Source of the DNA: a bacterium
GTDB lineage: Bacteria; Armatimonadota; Fimbriimonadia; Fimbriimonadales; Fimbriimonadaceae
Assembly (NCBI GenBank): GCA_013823945.1
Contig: PNMZ01000001.1
Location: forward strand, 124,001 to 188,000
Direction of reading: 5' to 3'
DNA length: 64,000 nucleotides
The translations under genes and the position numbers were made by a program. Every line of letters starts with the position of its first letter. Within the stretch, counting starts at the first letter, position 1. Positions 30,212 to 34,099 of this stretch are shown piece by piece. Below the pieces are notes generated by a model. It did not search any database, was not told where the DNA came from, and worked only from the letters and a program-made list of their open reading frames with translations.

Positions 30212-31255
30212 TCACTCACCAGTATCCGGTGGCTCAACTGCACTCCCCGGTCGAGTCGAAGCATCCAAATGCCAAGCGTTCGGAAACGCCTTGACACCAA
30301 GCTCATCCACCGGCGTATTGCCACCCGAAAGCCCCTGAACTTCGTCATAAGCCGACCGCTCAACCGATCCGACAAATGCGACTCGCCCAGCGCTACCGAT
30401 AATCCGAACCGTTGCAGTTTTCGTCGCCGGACGACCAACAAAAACATCGCCCGCTAACATCAGAGCCGTCGTCTCAAATGGCACATCCGCCTCCGCAACC
30501 GCGGTCAAAACCACCTCCTCTTGAGCCGGATTCACCAAAATTGTCTGAATTATTGCCCCCTTCTGAGCCTTGGCAAAAATTGACTGAACTGCTTCCGCAT
30601 CATCCGCCGCATTGACCACCGAGGGCACTGGATCTGGCGGATTTTGCGCTGGTTCCGTAGTTGGCGTCGCTGTCGCTTGTTCAGATGCCGGGATTCGGAT
30701 CGGTTCAGCTGGGGCCTGCACTGCCACTTTCTCCGATTTCTTCCCCGCATTCTGCCCTACAAAGAAGCTCGCAATCCCAACCAAAAGAATCAAAACAACC
30801 ATCGTCGCCCAAAGTAAAGTCAGGCCACTCTTGGGCTTAACTTCCAGCGTCTCAACGGACGCTTGGTGATCTTTTAGTGCCAAATCCTGTGTAACACGAT
30901 CCAGCATCTGCTTTTCTCGAACCGCTTTAGGATCCAAGTCAAGGGCCATCTCAAACCACTCTTTGGCCTGGGTCAACTCCCCGTGTTCCAGATAAATCTC
31001 ACCGAGCAACGAATGCGCCGTAACATTATTCGGAAACGCCCGCAAAATCTTCAAACACTGATCAATCGCCGCTTGCTTATCCCCTCGCATTCGGCTCAAA
31101 TTAGCCTGGGCCAAATCCTGATACACCTCGGTATCAGATCCTTCCCCTTTCCCAATCGTGTAGCCACACTCCGGACAAAAGTCGTTCGCCGCCGCAATCA
31201 CCGCAAAGCATCGCGGACAACTGATCTTATATTCACTTGAGTCCTGTACTGCCAA
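30212..31255 (-). CDS. Zinc-ribbon, TPR and single-membrane-span protein
   Basis: A 347 aa protein. The N-terminus is a double zinc ribbon knuckle ([19 protein letters not shown], residues about 12-30). A TPR region follows (residues about 40-125, [22 protein letters not shown]-like), then one transmembrane segment near residue 170 ([20 protein letters not shown]). The rest is an Ala/Pro-rich linker and an extracytoplasmic domain. TTG at 31255 is chosen: GAAGG stands 5 bases before it and the zinc ribbon follows at once. It overlaps the end of dut by 23 bases and is thus translationally coupled to it. A role in envelope assembly is possible; unproven. Confidence 0.75.
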
Positions 31256-31682
31256 AACCGCCTTCACCTCGTTCCGTTTCGTCAAGCGAATCCACAACTA
31301 TGACATCCGCCCGAGCAATCGGGCAAATCACGAGCTGCGCAATTCGCTCACCTGAATCCAATTGGACGACAGAATCGCTCAAATTGATCAAAATAACTCC
31401 AATTTCTCCCCGATAATCGCTATCAATCGTTCCTGGTGAGTTCAAACAGGTGATTCCTTGTTTCAAAGCCAGACCACTCCTAGGCCGAACCTGACCTTCA
31501 TATCCTCTCGGAATTGCTGCCCGCAAACCAGTTTTAACAAGTGCTCGCTCCATCGGTTGTAACGTCACAGCATGAGTGCTCCGTAAATCCATCCCTGCTG
31601 CTTCTTCTGTCGCATAAGCGGGAACCTGCCCCCCTTCCCCCACCGATAACCTCAAACTAACCTTCAACTCATCCTGCGCCAT
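31233..31682 (-). CDS. dut: dUTP diphosphatase
   Basis: A 149 aa trimeric dUTPase that keeps uracil out of DNA. All five motifs are seen: [40 protein letters not shown] and the C-terminal [10 protein letters not shown]. The divergent pxpB gene starts only 19 bases away. The -10-like TATGAT lies 8 bases before its ATG. Confidence 0.96.
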
Positions 31683-31689
31683 TTCCGCG

Positions 31690-31696
31690 TATCATA
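31690..31696. promoter_or_regulatory. Shared symmetric -10 for the divergent dut and pxpB genes
   Basis: The heptamer TATCATA reads TATCAT toward pxpB (6 bases before its ATG at 31702) and TATGAT toward dut (8 bases before its ATG at 31682). The whole intergenic region is 19 bases, so two separate promoters cannot fit unless their -10 elements overlap and both messages are leaderless. Confidence 0.5.
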
Positions 31697-31701
31697 ACCC
31701 C

Positions 31702-32439
31702 ATGCGTGTGGTCAGACTCAGCGAATCCTGCATCATTTTCAAAGAGTTATCCACCGAACCTGCCCCGATTGCCAATACTCTCAACGAAAGCCCACCTCTC
31801 GGCCTAATAGAAGCCGTCCCCGCATTTAACCAACTTGCTGTCTATTTTGAACCAGACGCTTTTGACTCCGCTGCGTTTGAGAAACTTTTGTTTGCCAATT
31901 CTCCCCTCTCCGTTTCAATGGAGAGGGGGCCAGGGGGTGAGGTAAATAGTTCGGCTCTCTCCTCACGTGGTGAGAACCAGCCCCAAACTCGATCTGGAGA
32001 CTCAGGAGGCGGACAAAATTCCGCACTAGTAATCATTCCCGCTCTCTACAACGGCCCCGACCTCGAAGCCGCCGCCAAATCCCTGAGCCTTTCAATCGAA
32101 GCACTCATTCAATTTCACAGCCAGACAATCTACACGGTCGAAGCCATCGGATTCTGCCCCGGATTCCCCTACCTCGCCGGACTCCCCAAACCCCTCCAGT
32201 ACCTCCCCCGAAAATCAACTCCCCGAACCGCCGTTGAGCCAGGTTCAATCGGCATCACCGGCGATCAATGCTGTATCTACCCACTCGTTCGACCCGGAGG
32301 GTGGAACATCATCGCCCAAACTCCTCTCACCCTCGTCGACCCTGACTCAAACTACTTCCCCCTCCAAGTCGGTGAAAAGATCCAATTCCAACCAATCACC
32401 GTTTCGCAATTTCAAGAGCTCCGAGATAAACGCCTATGA
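31702..32439 (+). CDS. pxpB: 5-oxoprolinase subunit B, with an in-frame repeat insertion
   Basis: A 245 aa KipI/PxpB protein, part of the bacterial ATP-dependent 5-oxoprolinase PxpABC. The C-terminal core is intact: YTVEAIGFCPGFPYLAGLP, PRTAVEPGSIGITG and CCIYPLVRPGGWNIIA. Between the N-terminal strand (AFEKLLF, about residue 64) and the normal continuation (LVIIPALYNGPDLE, about residue 107) lies a stretch of about 40 residues with no place in the family. It is encoded by a copy of the dispersed palindromic element. The frame is kept. The stop overlaps the pxpA start in ATGA. Confidence 0.87.
   Translation: MRVVRLSESCIIFKELSTEPAPIANTLNESPPLGLIEAVPAFNQLAVYFEPDAFDSAAFEKLLFANSPLSVSMERGPGGEVNSSALSSRGENQPQTRSGDSGGGQNSALVIIPALYNGPDLEAAAKSLSLSIEALIQFHSQTIYTVEAIGFCPGFPYLAGLPKPLQYLPRKSTPRTAVEPGSIGITGDQCCIYPLVRPGGWNIIAQTPLTLVDPDSNYFPLQVGEKIQFQPITVSQFQELRDKRL
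31901..32012 (+). repeat. Palindromic element inserted in frame in pxpB
   Basis: CCCCTCTCC, a GTTTCAAT loop and GGAGAGGGGG at 31903-31929 are followed by the same GGGGGTGAGGT tail (to 31942), a 31-base spacer and GAACC, as in the copies behind der. After GAACC the block CCCCAA and a GACT then GGAGG follow, a degraded version of the second palindrome. The element adds about 40 codons with no stop. Confidence 0.75.
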
Positions 32440-33182
32440 AAATCATCGACCTCAATGCTGATCTCGGTGAAGGAATGCCCCACGAGCAGGAAATTCTGCC
32501 CCTGATTAGCAGCGCCAATATCTGTTGTGGTGCCCACGCCGGCTCGCCCGAAATCACTCGCGCTACCGTCGAATCCTGCCTCCAACTCGGTATCCGAATC
32601 GGTGCCCACCCCGGCTACCCCGACCCTGAATACTTCGGCCGCCAGTCCTTTATGACACTGAAAATAAAACCAGGGCCACTTTTTAATCAAATGGTCAAAC
32701 AGACAAATTTGATTCCTGAAGCTAAATACATAAAACCTCATGGCGCTTTTTACAACGACACTGCCAGCCGAGCATATAGATATGATCACTTAGGCGCCAA
32801 AAAGTACAAGAAAATAAAGGAGGACTATTCTCCAAAACCAGATGATATCTACAACGTTCTTCATGCATCGCTCATCATCACGAAACTCCCACTCATGGGA
32901 CTCGCAAATACTTATCACTCCCAAATCGCCAGAAACGCACATGTCCTTTTCATTCCCGAAGGATTCATTGACCGCCGCTACGACAACAACCACCGACTCC
33001 TCCCCAGATCCAACCCCGACGCCATAATCCACGAACCACAAGAAGCAATCGACCAAGCCCTACGTCTCGCCAAAACCTGCGATTCCCTCTGCGTCCACGG
33101 CGACAACCCCAACGCACCAGAACTCCTGACAAAAGTCCGCCAAGCCCTCGAAAACGACGGTTACACCATCGCACCAAAATGA
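32436..33182 (+). CDS. pxpA: 5-oxoprolinase subunit A (LamB/YcsF)
   Basis: A 248 aa subunit of the 5-oxoprolinase that converts 5-oxoproline to glutamate. Family motifs are MKIIDLNADLGEG, NICCGAHAGSP, GAHPGYPDPEYFGR, KPHGAFYNDTA and the C-terminal CVHGDNPNAPELL. From residue about 112 to 136 a lysine/tyrosine-rich stretch (AYRYDHLGAKKYKKIKEDYS) appears longer than in usual members and is AT-rich. It overlaps both neighbours by 4 bases (ATGA), so pxpBAC is a tightly coupled operon. Confidence 0.9.
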   Translation: MKIIDLNADLGEGMPHEQEILPLISSANICCGAHAGSPEITRATVESCLQLGIRIGAHPGYPDPEYFGRQSFMTLKIKPGPLFNQMVKQTNLIPEAKYIKPHGAFYNDTASRAYRYDHLGAKKYKKIKEDYSPKPDDIYNVLHASLIITKLPLMGLANTYHSQIARNAHVLFIPEGFIDRRYDNNHRLLPRSNPDAIIHEPQEAIDQALRLAKTCDSLCVHGDNPNAPELLTKVRQALENDGYTIAPK

Positions 33183-34099
33183 TCACTGTCACCCAATCCT
33201 ACGGCGGTAATTTCATCGTCCCAATTCGCATTCCAAATCTCCGGTGCCAAGGAGTTCCCCCCGGCGGCCCTGCCGATCCTCTCCTCGCCAGACTTGTTTC
33301 GCACCTTTCCCAAAACCAGACCGTCCTCGAACTCACCGCCCCAATAACTCTCGTCACCGATTGCCTCACTCAAATCGCTATCGCCGCACCTCGGAATTCC
33401 GCCTGCATTCCGGATCACCCAACAATGTGCCTCGGCCTGATCAGTGCCTCGCCAAGCACGTCCCTCACCATCCATGCTCCCAAAACAGGCTTCCGCGTCT
33501 ACTTGTCTTGGACGGGACTCAATTCGCAATCCCTCCTCCCAACCCCGATATCAACGGGCCAATCCTTGGCGAGTTCAAACAATCATTTTTCAAGCTCTGT
33601 CATCCTGGATCCCGTCCTCATCCCACCTCCGACAGAGACGATCCGCTACCTATACATCATCGAAAACGCTACGCAAATCCACTGCCAAACAACCCCTGCA
33701 ATTTCTCGCATTGGCAATCGTTTAAGCTTTGATATTCTCGATTCTAACGAAATCCCGCCCCAGACCGCATCCGCGAAAACTAGCCCCCACTTATTCCACA
33801 ACCTCGCACCGAACACGCGCTCCGAACCCTCAACTCACGGCACAATCCAAGTCACACCCGACAACCAACTCCTGATCCATGGCCCCGATGGCCCTACCCT
33901 CGGCGGGTACCCAAAAATCGGCACGATTATCGAAGCTGACCTCCCGTCTCTTGCCCAACTACGTCCCGGCCAGCAGATCGAACTCATTCCCGTATCTCTT
34001 GAAGTTGCCCTCGACCTCCGCCGGGAATCCGCACTTCAACTCCAAAAAACCCTGCATCAAATCAACCAAGCTCTGCGCATCGCTCATAATTCGACGTAG
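33179..34099 (+). CDS. pxpC: 5-oxoprolinase subunit C (carboxyltransferase-like)
   Basis: A 306 aa protein of the biotin-dependent carboxyltransferase-like/allophanate hydrolase subunit 2 family, the third subunit of PxpABC. Markers are GVPPGGPADPLLARL, VLELT, a strongly conserved SRIGNRLSF, and GPTLGGYPKIGTI. The start overlaps pxpA by 4 bases. The C-terminal helix is basic and Gln-rich. Confidence 0.88.
   Translation: MITVTQSYGGNFIVPIRIPNLRCQGVPPGGPADPLLARLVSHLSQNQTVLELTAPITLVTDCLTQIAIAAPRNSACIPDHPTMCLGLISASPSTSLTIHAPKTGFRVYLSWTGLNSQSLLPTPISTGQSLASSNNHFSSSVILDPVLIPPPTETIRYLYIIENATQIHCQTTPAISRIGNRLSFDILDSNEIPPQTASAKTSPHLFHNLAPNTRSEPSTHGTIQVTPDNQLLIHGPDGPTLGGYPKIGTIIEADLPSLAQLRPGQQIELIPVSLEVALDLRRESALQLQKTLHQINQALRIAHNST

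Follow-up and report, generated by a model that had tools for sequence, protein, structure and literature searches.

A putative bidirectional leaderless promoter in the 19-bp gap between dut and pxpB of a Fimbriimonadaceae genome

The dut–pxpB gap and its flanking genes

In the window, i.e., the whole 64-kb stretch of DNA analyzed here, dut and pxpB are arranged head to head around a 19-bp gap (Table 1). Because dut is on the minus strand, its ATG reads as CAT, at 31680–31682; the pxpB ATG, on the plus strand, occupies 31702–31704, and the whole spacer between the two start codons, which begin at 31682 and 31702, is TTCCGCGTATCATAACCCC. This spacer includes the heptamer TATCATA (31690–31696), which yields TATCAT toward pxpB and TATGAT toward dut. 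Direct reading of the sequence thus bears out both the 19-base spacing and the two-way heptamer of the original prediction, made from the sequence alone. Since the pxpB, pxpA, and pxpC frames overlap by 4 bp at each junction, pxpB is therefore the first gene of a pxpBAC operon. On the opposite strand, dut is probably co-transcribed with the TPR-repeat protein gene, a homologue of which comes after dut in most loci of the family. An Rfam scan of the window returned three tRNAs only.

Table 1 Features at the dut–pxpB locus (window coordinates).
Feature	Position	Strand	Basis or remark
TPR-repeat protein gene, overlaps end of dut	30212..31297	-	ORF and Pfam
dut, dUTPase, 149 aa	31233..31682	-	PF00692, E 1.9e-34
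Predicted dut transcription start	31682..31684	-	any of three A residues, leader 0–2 nt; placed by position
Putative bidirectional promoter core (19-bp intergenic gap)	31683..31701	.	direct sequence reading
TATCAT, -10-like hexamer toward pxpB	31690..31695	+	first base at -12 of ATG, G before
TATGAT, -10-like hexamer toward dut	31691..31696	-	first base at -14 of ATG
Predicted pxpB transcription start	31702	+	A of ATG, 7 bp past -10; placed by position
pxpB, 5-oxoprolinase subunit, 245 aa	31702..32439	+	PF02682 (CT_C_D), E 1.6e-44
pxpA (LamB/YcsF family), 4-bp overlap with pxpB stop	32436..33182	+	PF03746, E 9.1e-52
pxpC (CT_A_B domain), 4-bp overlap with pxpA stop	33179..34099	+	PF02626, E 3.6e-28

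Both genes have an in-frame alternative start, a GTG at two codons inside pxpB and a TTG at five codons inside dut, but relatives back neither. For pxpB, alignment allowed a start to be set in six relatives of the genus, with the exception of G001, and each of the six has an ATG at the position of the pxpB ATG. The dut ATG aligns with the starts of G006, G007, and G004; the dut start of G003 and G005 is placed four codons earlier, that of G002 five codons later. Within pxpB, positions 31903–31946 hold an in-frame copy of an interspersed repeat of ~41 bp with 24 matches in the genome, itself included; in the pxpB orthologue of G006, this position carries a longer insertion.

The opposite-strand hexamers overlap by 5 bp, as in bidirectional promoters with a shared or overlapping −10, and the first T of each lies at about the distance (~12 bp before the start) that characterizes the TANNNT motif of leaderless genes (Table 1). 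Taking 7 bp from −10 to start, the predicted starts at 31702 and 31684 are 18 bp apart. We scored both sides with a −10 matrix built from 122 sites with TANNNT at leaderless distance, dut and pxpB left out: TATCAT scored 7.1 bits and was the top site within 300 bp upstream of pxpB, while TATGAT scored 5.0 bits and was the top site within 318 bp upstream of dut. The G before the hexamer is absent on the dut side. By eye, no AGGAGG-like stretch lies at Shine–Dalgarno (SD) distance before either start. The symmetry is partly automatic, as the opposite strand of any TATNAT, shifted by one base, already matches at 4/6 positions and only A31696 is extra. When the 19-bp gap was shuffled, both sides reached ≥4/6 matches to TATAAT, including A2 and T6 and at −11 to −15, in 2.0% of shuffles. 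For a TTGACA-like −35 located 16–18 bp from the −10, the best match was 2/6 on each side, and a sigma-70 scan of the gap region returned 0 sites.

Leaderless-type signals and short divergent gaps across the genome

Start-associated signals were evaluated in a sample of 400 kb plus the window (464 kb), with 385 genes called and 246 first genes. TANNNT hexamers peak at −12 of these first genes: 57 of the 246 displayed one at −11 to −15, against 11–20 in eight 5-nt control windows. A G directly preceded 33 of the 57 hexamers vs. 35 of 123 control hexamers, and SD-like motifs were associated with 9 of the 57 genes vs. 55 of the 189 other first genes (for reference, 61/119 operon genes and 77/365 unrelated upstream stretches). 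Together, the preceding G and the scarcity of SD motifs represent two independent features backing the −12 hexamers as real promoters. The −12 peak was also detected in two relatives, one congener and one member of another genus; the hexamer started at −12 for 21 of 219 first genes in one relative (mean of 3.5 per position from −20 to −59) and for 14 of 177 in the other (mean of 2.2 over the same positions). Matrix scores ≥5 bits were obtained at −11 to −15 for 121 of 642 first genes compared to 23 at −31 to −35, the former figure being inflated by a matrix derived from genes of the same set. No −35 enrichment was found in the whole leaderless-like gene class of the sample. Judging from these upstream patterns, leaderless initiation looks common in this genome and looks like a genome-wide habit of the lineage.

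As a count, the suggestion that divergent start codons seldom lie so near each other holds, with only 3 of the 63 head-to-head pairs of the sample separated by a positive gap ≤20 bp (15, 19, and 20 bp, and no others ≤24 bp), but the closeness is itself required by the arrangement: a pair of leaderless starts around a single shared −10 geometrically imposes a gap near 20 bp. Positive gaps ≤24 bp were observed for 1 of 56 head-to-head pairs in G003 (23 bp) and 0 of 47 in G028, and overlapping head-to-head pairs were called twice in the window's genome (G000) and once in each of these two relatives. All three gaps of 19–24 bp, in G000 and G003, displayed a −10 with ≥4/6 matches at leaderless distance on both sides. 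The 20-bp gap (L064:3622–3643, C1:483620) has a symmetric TATAATA core, lies between a gene that is methyltransferase-like by eye and a short gene of no assigned function, and represents the second strict double-start gap of the genome. At L061:13430–13446, head-to-head genes are 15 bp apart, and just one of the two has a −10 at −12.

Conservation of the gap and competing readings

We next consider the locus in relatives. The dut and pxpB genes are divergent and adjacent in 25 of 37 genomes of the family; of the others, two have pxpB ~1 kb away, nine have none within the fetched stretch, and one is without a dut match. Outside the family, a PxpB match was found beside dut at 0 of 14 loci (other families of the order, 14 of 24 genomes). 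The dut–pxpB gap of Armatimonadetes bacterium Uphvl-Ar1 departs from that of the window by a single base. Within the genus, GCGTATNAT is unchanged across six aligned congeners, whereas the flanks and the gap length vary. The distance from the element to pxpB is constant in these congeners (−11/−12) while the distance to dut ranges from 14 to 19, and the element thus looks anchored to pxpB within the genus, with a strictly leaderless dut not conserved there. Of the five other aligned genomes, four (G003, G004, G005, and G007) have a dut-side hexamer that is without T1 and lies 17–19 bases from dut; in G002, neither side reaches 4/6, and the full symmetric heptamer occurs in the genus only in G000 and G006. 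In this species and G006, dut looks close enough to the predicted element for a leaderless or near-leaderless message.

In other genera, the same geometry is written in other letters, e.g., TATGAT/CATAAT in G022 and TATAGT/TATAAT in G008. With starts chosen by rule, available for 19 of the 25 loci (six were dropped for having no start within 8 codons of the query start), a −10 was found at leaderless distance on the pxpB side in 14/19 (1.56 expected), on the dut side in 6/19 (1.55 expected), and for both genes in 6/19 (0.15 expected), counts that come from related genomes rather than independent trials and include G008 as a miss, the rule having picked a start that spoils the pattern. With starts chosen by hand in 22 of the 25 (G013, G014, and G024, with longer gaps, omitted), both sides were matched in 9/22, with overlapping hexamers in 7 of these 9.

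Overall, the best reading of the gap, and a reasonably probable one, is a two-way promoter with a shared −10 and leaderless or nearly leaderless dut and pxpB messages; on the same sequence evidence, this reading is firmer for pxpB than for dut. Specifically, TATCATA (31690–31696) would be the shared −10 of a housekeeping-sigma bidirectional promoter with no recognisable −35, on which RNA polymerase would take one of two orientations. In the rightward orientation, transcription would begin with the A of the pxpB start codon and yield a leaderless pxpBAC message; in the leftward one, it would begin at 31684–31682 and yield a dut(-TPR) message whose leader has 0–2 nt, and ribosomes would initiate on the 5′-terminal AUG as for other leaderless genes. 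The sequence and its positions, the −12 signal across the genome, and the recurrence in relatives are direct observations, from which we infer transcription itself, the start sites, and the sigma factor reading the element. The original prediction had both messages leaderless, which is in line with −10s at leaderless distance, the genome-wide −12 habit, and the recurrence in other genera; it holds less well for dut, which may have a 1–2-nt leader and whose hexamer is weaker (5.0 vs. 7.1 bits) and less constant in the genus.

In an alternative reading, the element would serve pxpBAC alone, as a leaderless promoter working in one direction, with the dut reading a by-product of the built-in TATNAT symmetry and dut expressed from elsewhere, e.g., from inside pxpB with a leader. 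The fixed pxpB distance (−11/−12) and varying dut distance (−14 to −19) across the six congeners, the lower dut-side score with no preceding G, and the restriction of the full heptamer to G000 and G006 in the genus all point that way. We nevertheless regard a one-way promoter as rather unlikely: no better dut −10 occurs in the next 318 bp, no SD precedes the dut ATG, and hexamers at leaderless distance on both sides occur in other genera (G022, G008, G027, G032, and G009, those of G008, G032, and G009 resting on hand-chosen starts). The span of dut–pxpB gap lengths, 17 to 94 bp, and the two separate −10s in the longer gaps of G030 (32 bp) and G026 (41 bp) would instead fit two merely overlapping promoters, brought together when deletions compacted the gap, with no selection for a shared element. 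That history seems improbable to us, as the window hexamers share five of six bases and are physically one element, and it departs from the shared-promoter reading in history, not in present mechanism. The missing −35 boxes could also mean that the heptamer is no promoter at all, and chance alone readily produces TATNATA cores (the inverted control has 3 places in the genome, see below). Chance is nonetheless a very poor account of GCGTATNAT staying the same in six congeners despite their differing flanks and gap lengths, of the pxpB-side excess (14/19 vs. 1.56 expected), and of both strict-pattern places of the genome falling between genes.

The shared −10 reading joins two things already known. 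In parts of the published work on bidirectional promoters, divergent starts lie 10, 18, or 23 bp apart, 18 bp being the commonest spacing (PMC12825309, PMC10268837), and the gap resembles the symmetric −10 promoters described there (Warman, Grainger) in its overlapping opposite-strand hexamers, divergent genes, and predicted 18-bp spacing. Unlike those Grainger-group promoters, as far as these sources, silent on leader length, describe them, the dut and pxpB start codons are the predicted transcription starts (within two bases), and no −35 boxes are visible. A TANNNT ~12 bp before the start has been published as a mark of leaderless genes in bacteria (Zheng et al. 2011, PMC3160421); motif, distance, and SD absence are all equal here to what parts of that study describe, unlike which a G also precedes the hexamer here, and the term Armatimonad- has no occurrence in that article. 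The prpD/Rv1129c pair of Mycobacterium tuberculosis, where closely juxtaposed divergent promoters are reported to be common, is likewise divergent with both genes mapped as leaderless (PMC3898074), the figure legend being silent on start spacing and −10 sharing. Among titles and abstract openings of the literature on leaderless and bidirectional or divergent promoters, we found no description of one −10 serving two leaderless genes, and a search judged by title found no paper on leaderless initiation in Armatimonadota or transcription starts in Fimbriimonas. The gap is probably a compact addition to an already known type of promoter rather than a new switch.

The mutually exclusive expression of dUTPase and 5-oxoprolinase originally proposed is not supported. 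The geometry bars only simultaneous polymerase binding, and the five E. coli bidirectional promoters tested, with starts 10–23 bp apart, showed no interference at basal activity in the portion of that study at hand, which also indicates that strong activation of one direction may repress the other (PMC12825309). An exclusive-expression switch was rejected as stated on both grounds. A shared promoter implies no regulatory link between dUTPase and 5-oxoprolinase, and the pairing looks like an inherited neighbourhood rather than a regulatory switch. If the two-way reading is true, the gap would be near the smallest unit from which two diverging operons can be both transcribed and translated. It would then also count, at the level of sequence, as evidence that leaderless initiation is widespread in Armatimonadota, and would offer a clean natural setting in which to ask whether polymerase is divided evenly by a shared −10 that lacks −35 boxes.

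Recurrence of the symmetric pattern in the family

More tentatively, and with somewhat less than even confidence, Fimbriimonadaceae may use a recurrent minimal back-to-back leaderless promoter, i.e., one −10 hexamer or heptamer with neither a −35 nor leaders, which at dut–pxpB would have been re-formed from other letters in several genera while the arrangement is kept. If so, ~20 bp of non-coding DNA would carry all the start signals of two operons.

We counted a strict pattern, CAT-N5-8-TATNATA-N4-7-ATG, alongside controls with inverted start codons (ATG...CAT) or a mock core. The 3.16-Mb genome contains it twice, each time between real genes arranged head to head, vs. three inverted places (genes there unchecked) and 0 mock-core places. 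Across 74 genomes of the family, a hand tally gave 66 strict vs. 40 inverted and 40 mock-core places (1.65×), omitting G036 and G092, in which strict and control patterns are found in nearly equal numbers. Two ORFs ≥100 codons opened from 9 of 32 strict sites vs. 0 of 27 mock-core sites, among sites supplied with a locus rather than every site; of these nine, L083 and L094 have a left ORF that looks by eye like a non-coding shadow, and L080, L082, L086, and L090 represent a single orthologous pair. As proof, the raw strict-pattern counts were set aside as weak, since only the ORF check separates real from control sites.

In the divergent pair of L080, L082, L086, and L090, a symmetric TATNATA is kept between the start codons in four genomes (near 1501; near 735 in L082), and one protein is aminopeptidase P-like by eye while the other contains EMSGI...HNDSGD. 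G036 and G092, from one genus of the family and with 1.5 Mb each, matched the AT-rich patterns, real and control alike, far more often, and therefore look small and AT-rich.
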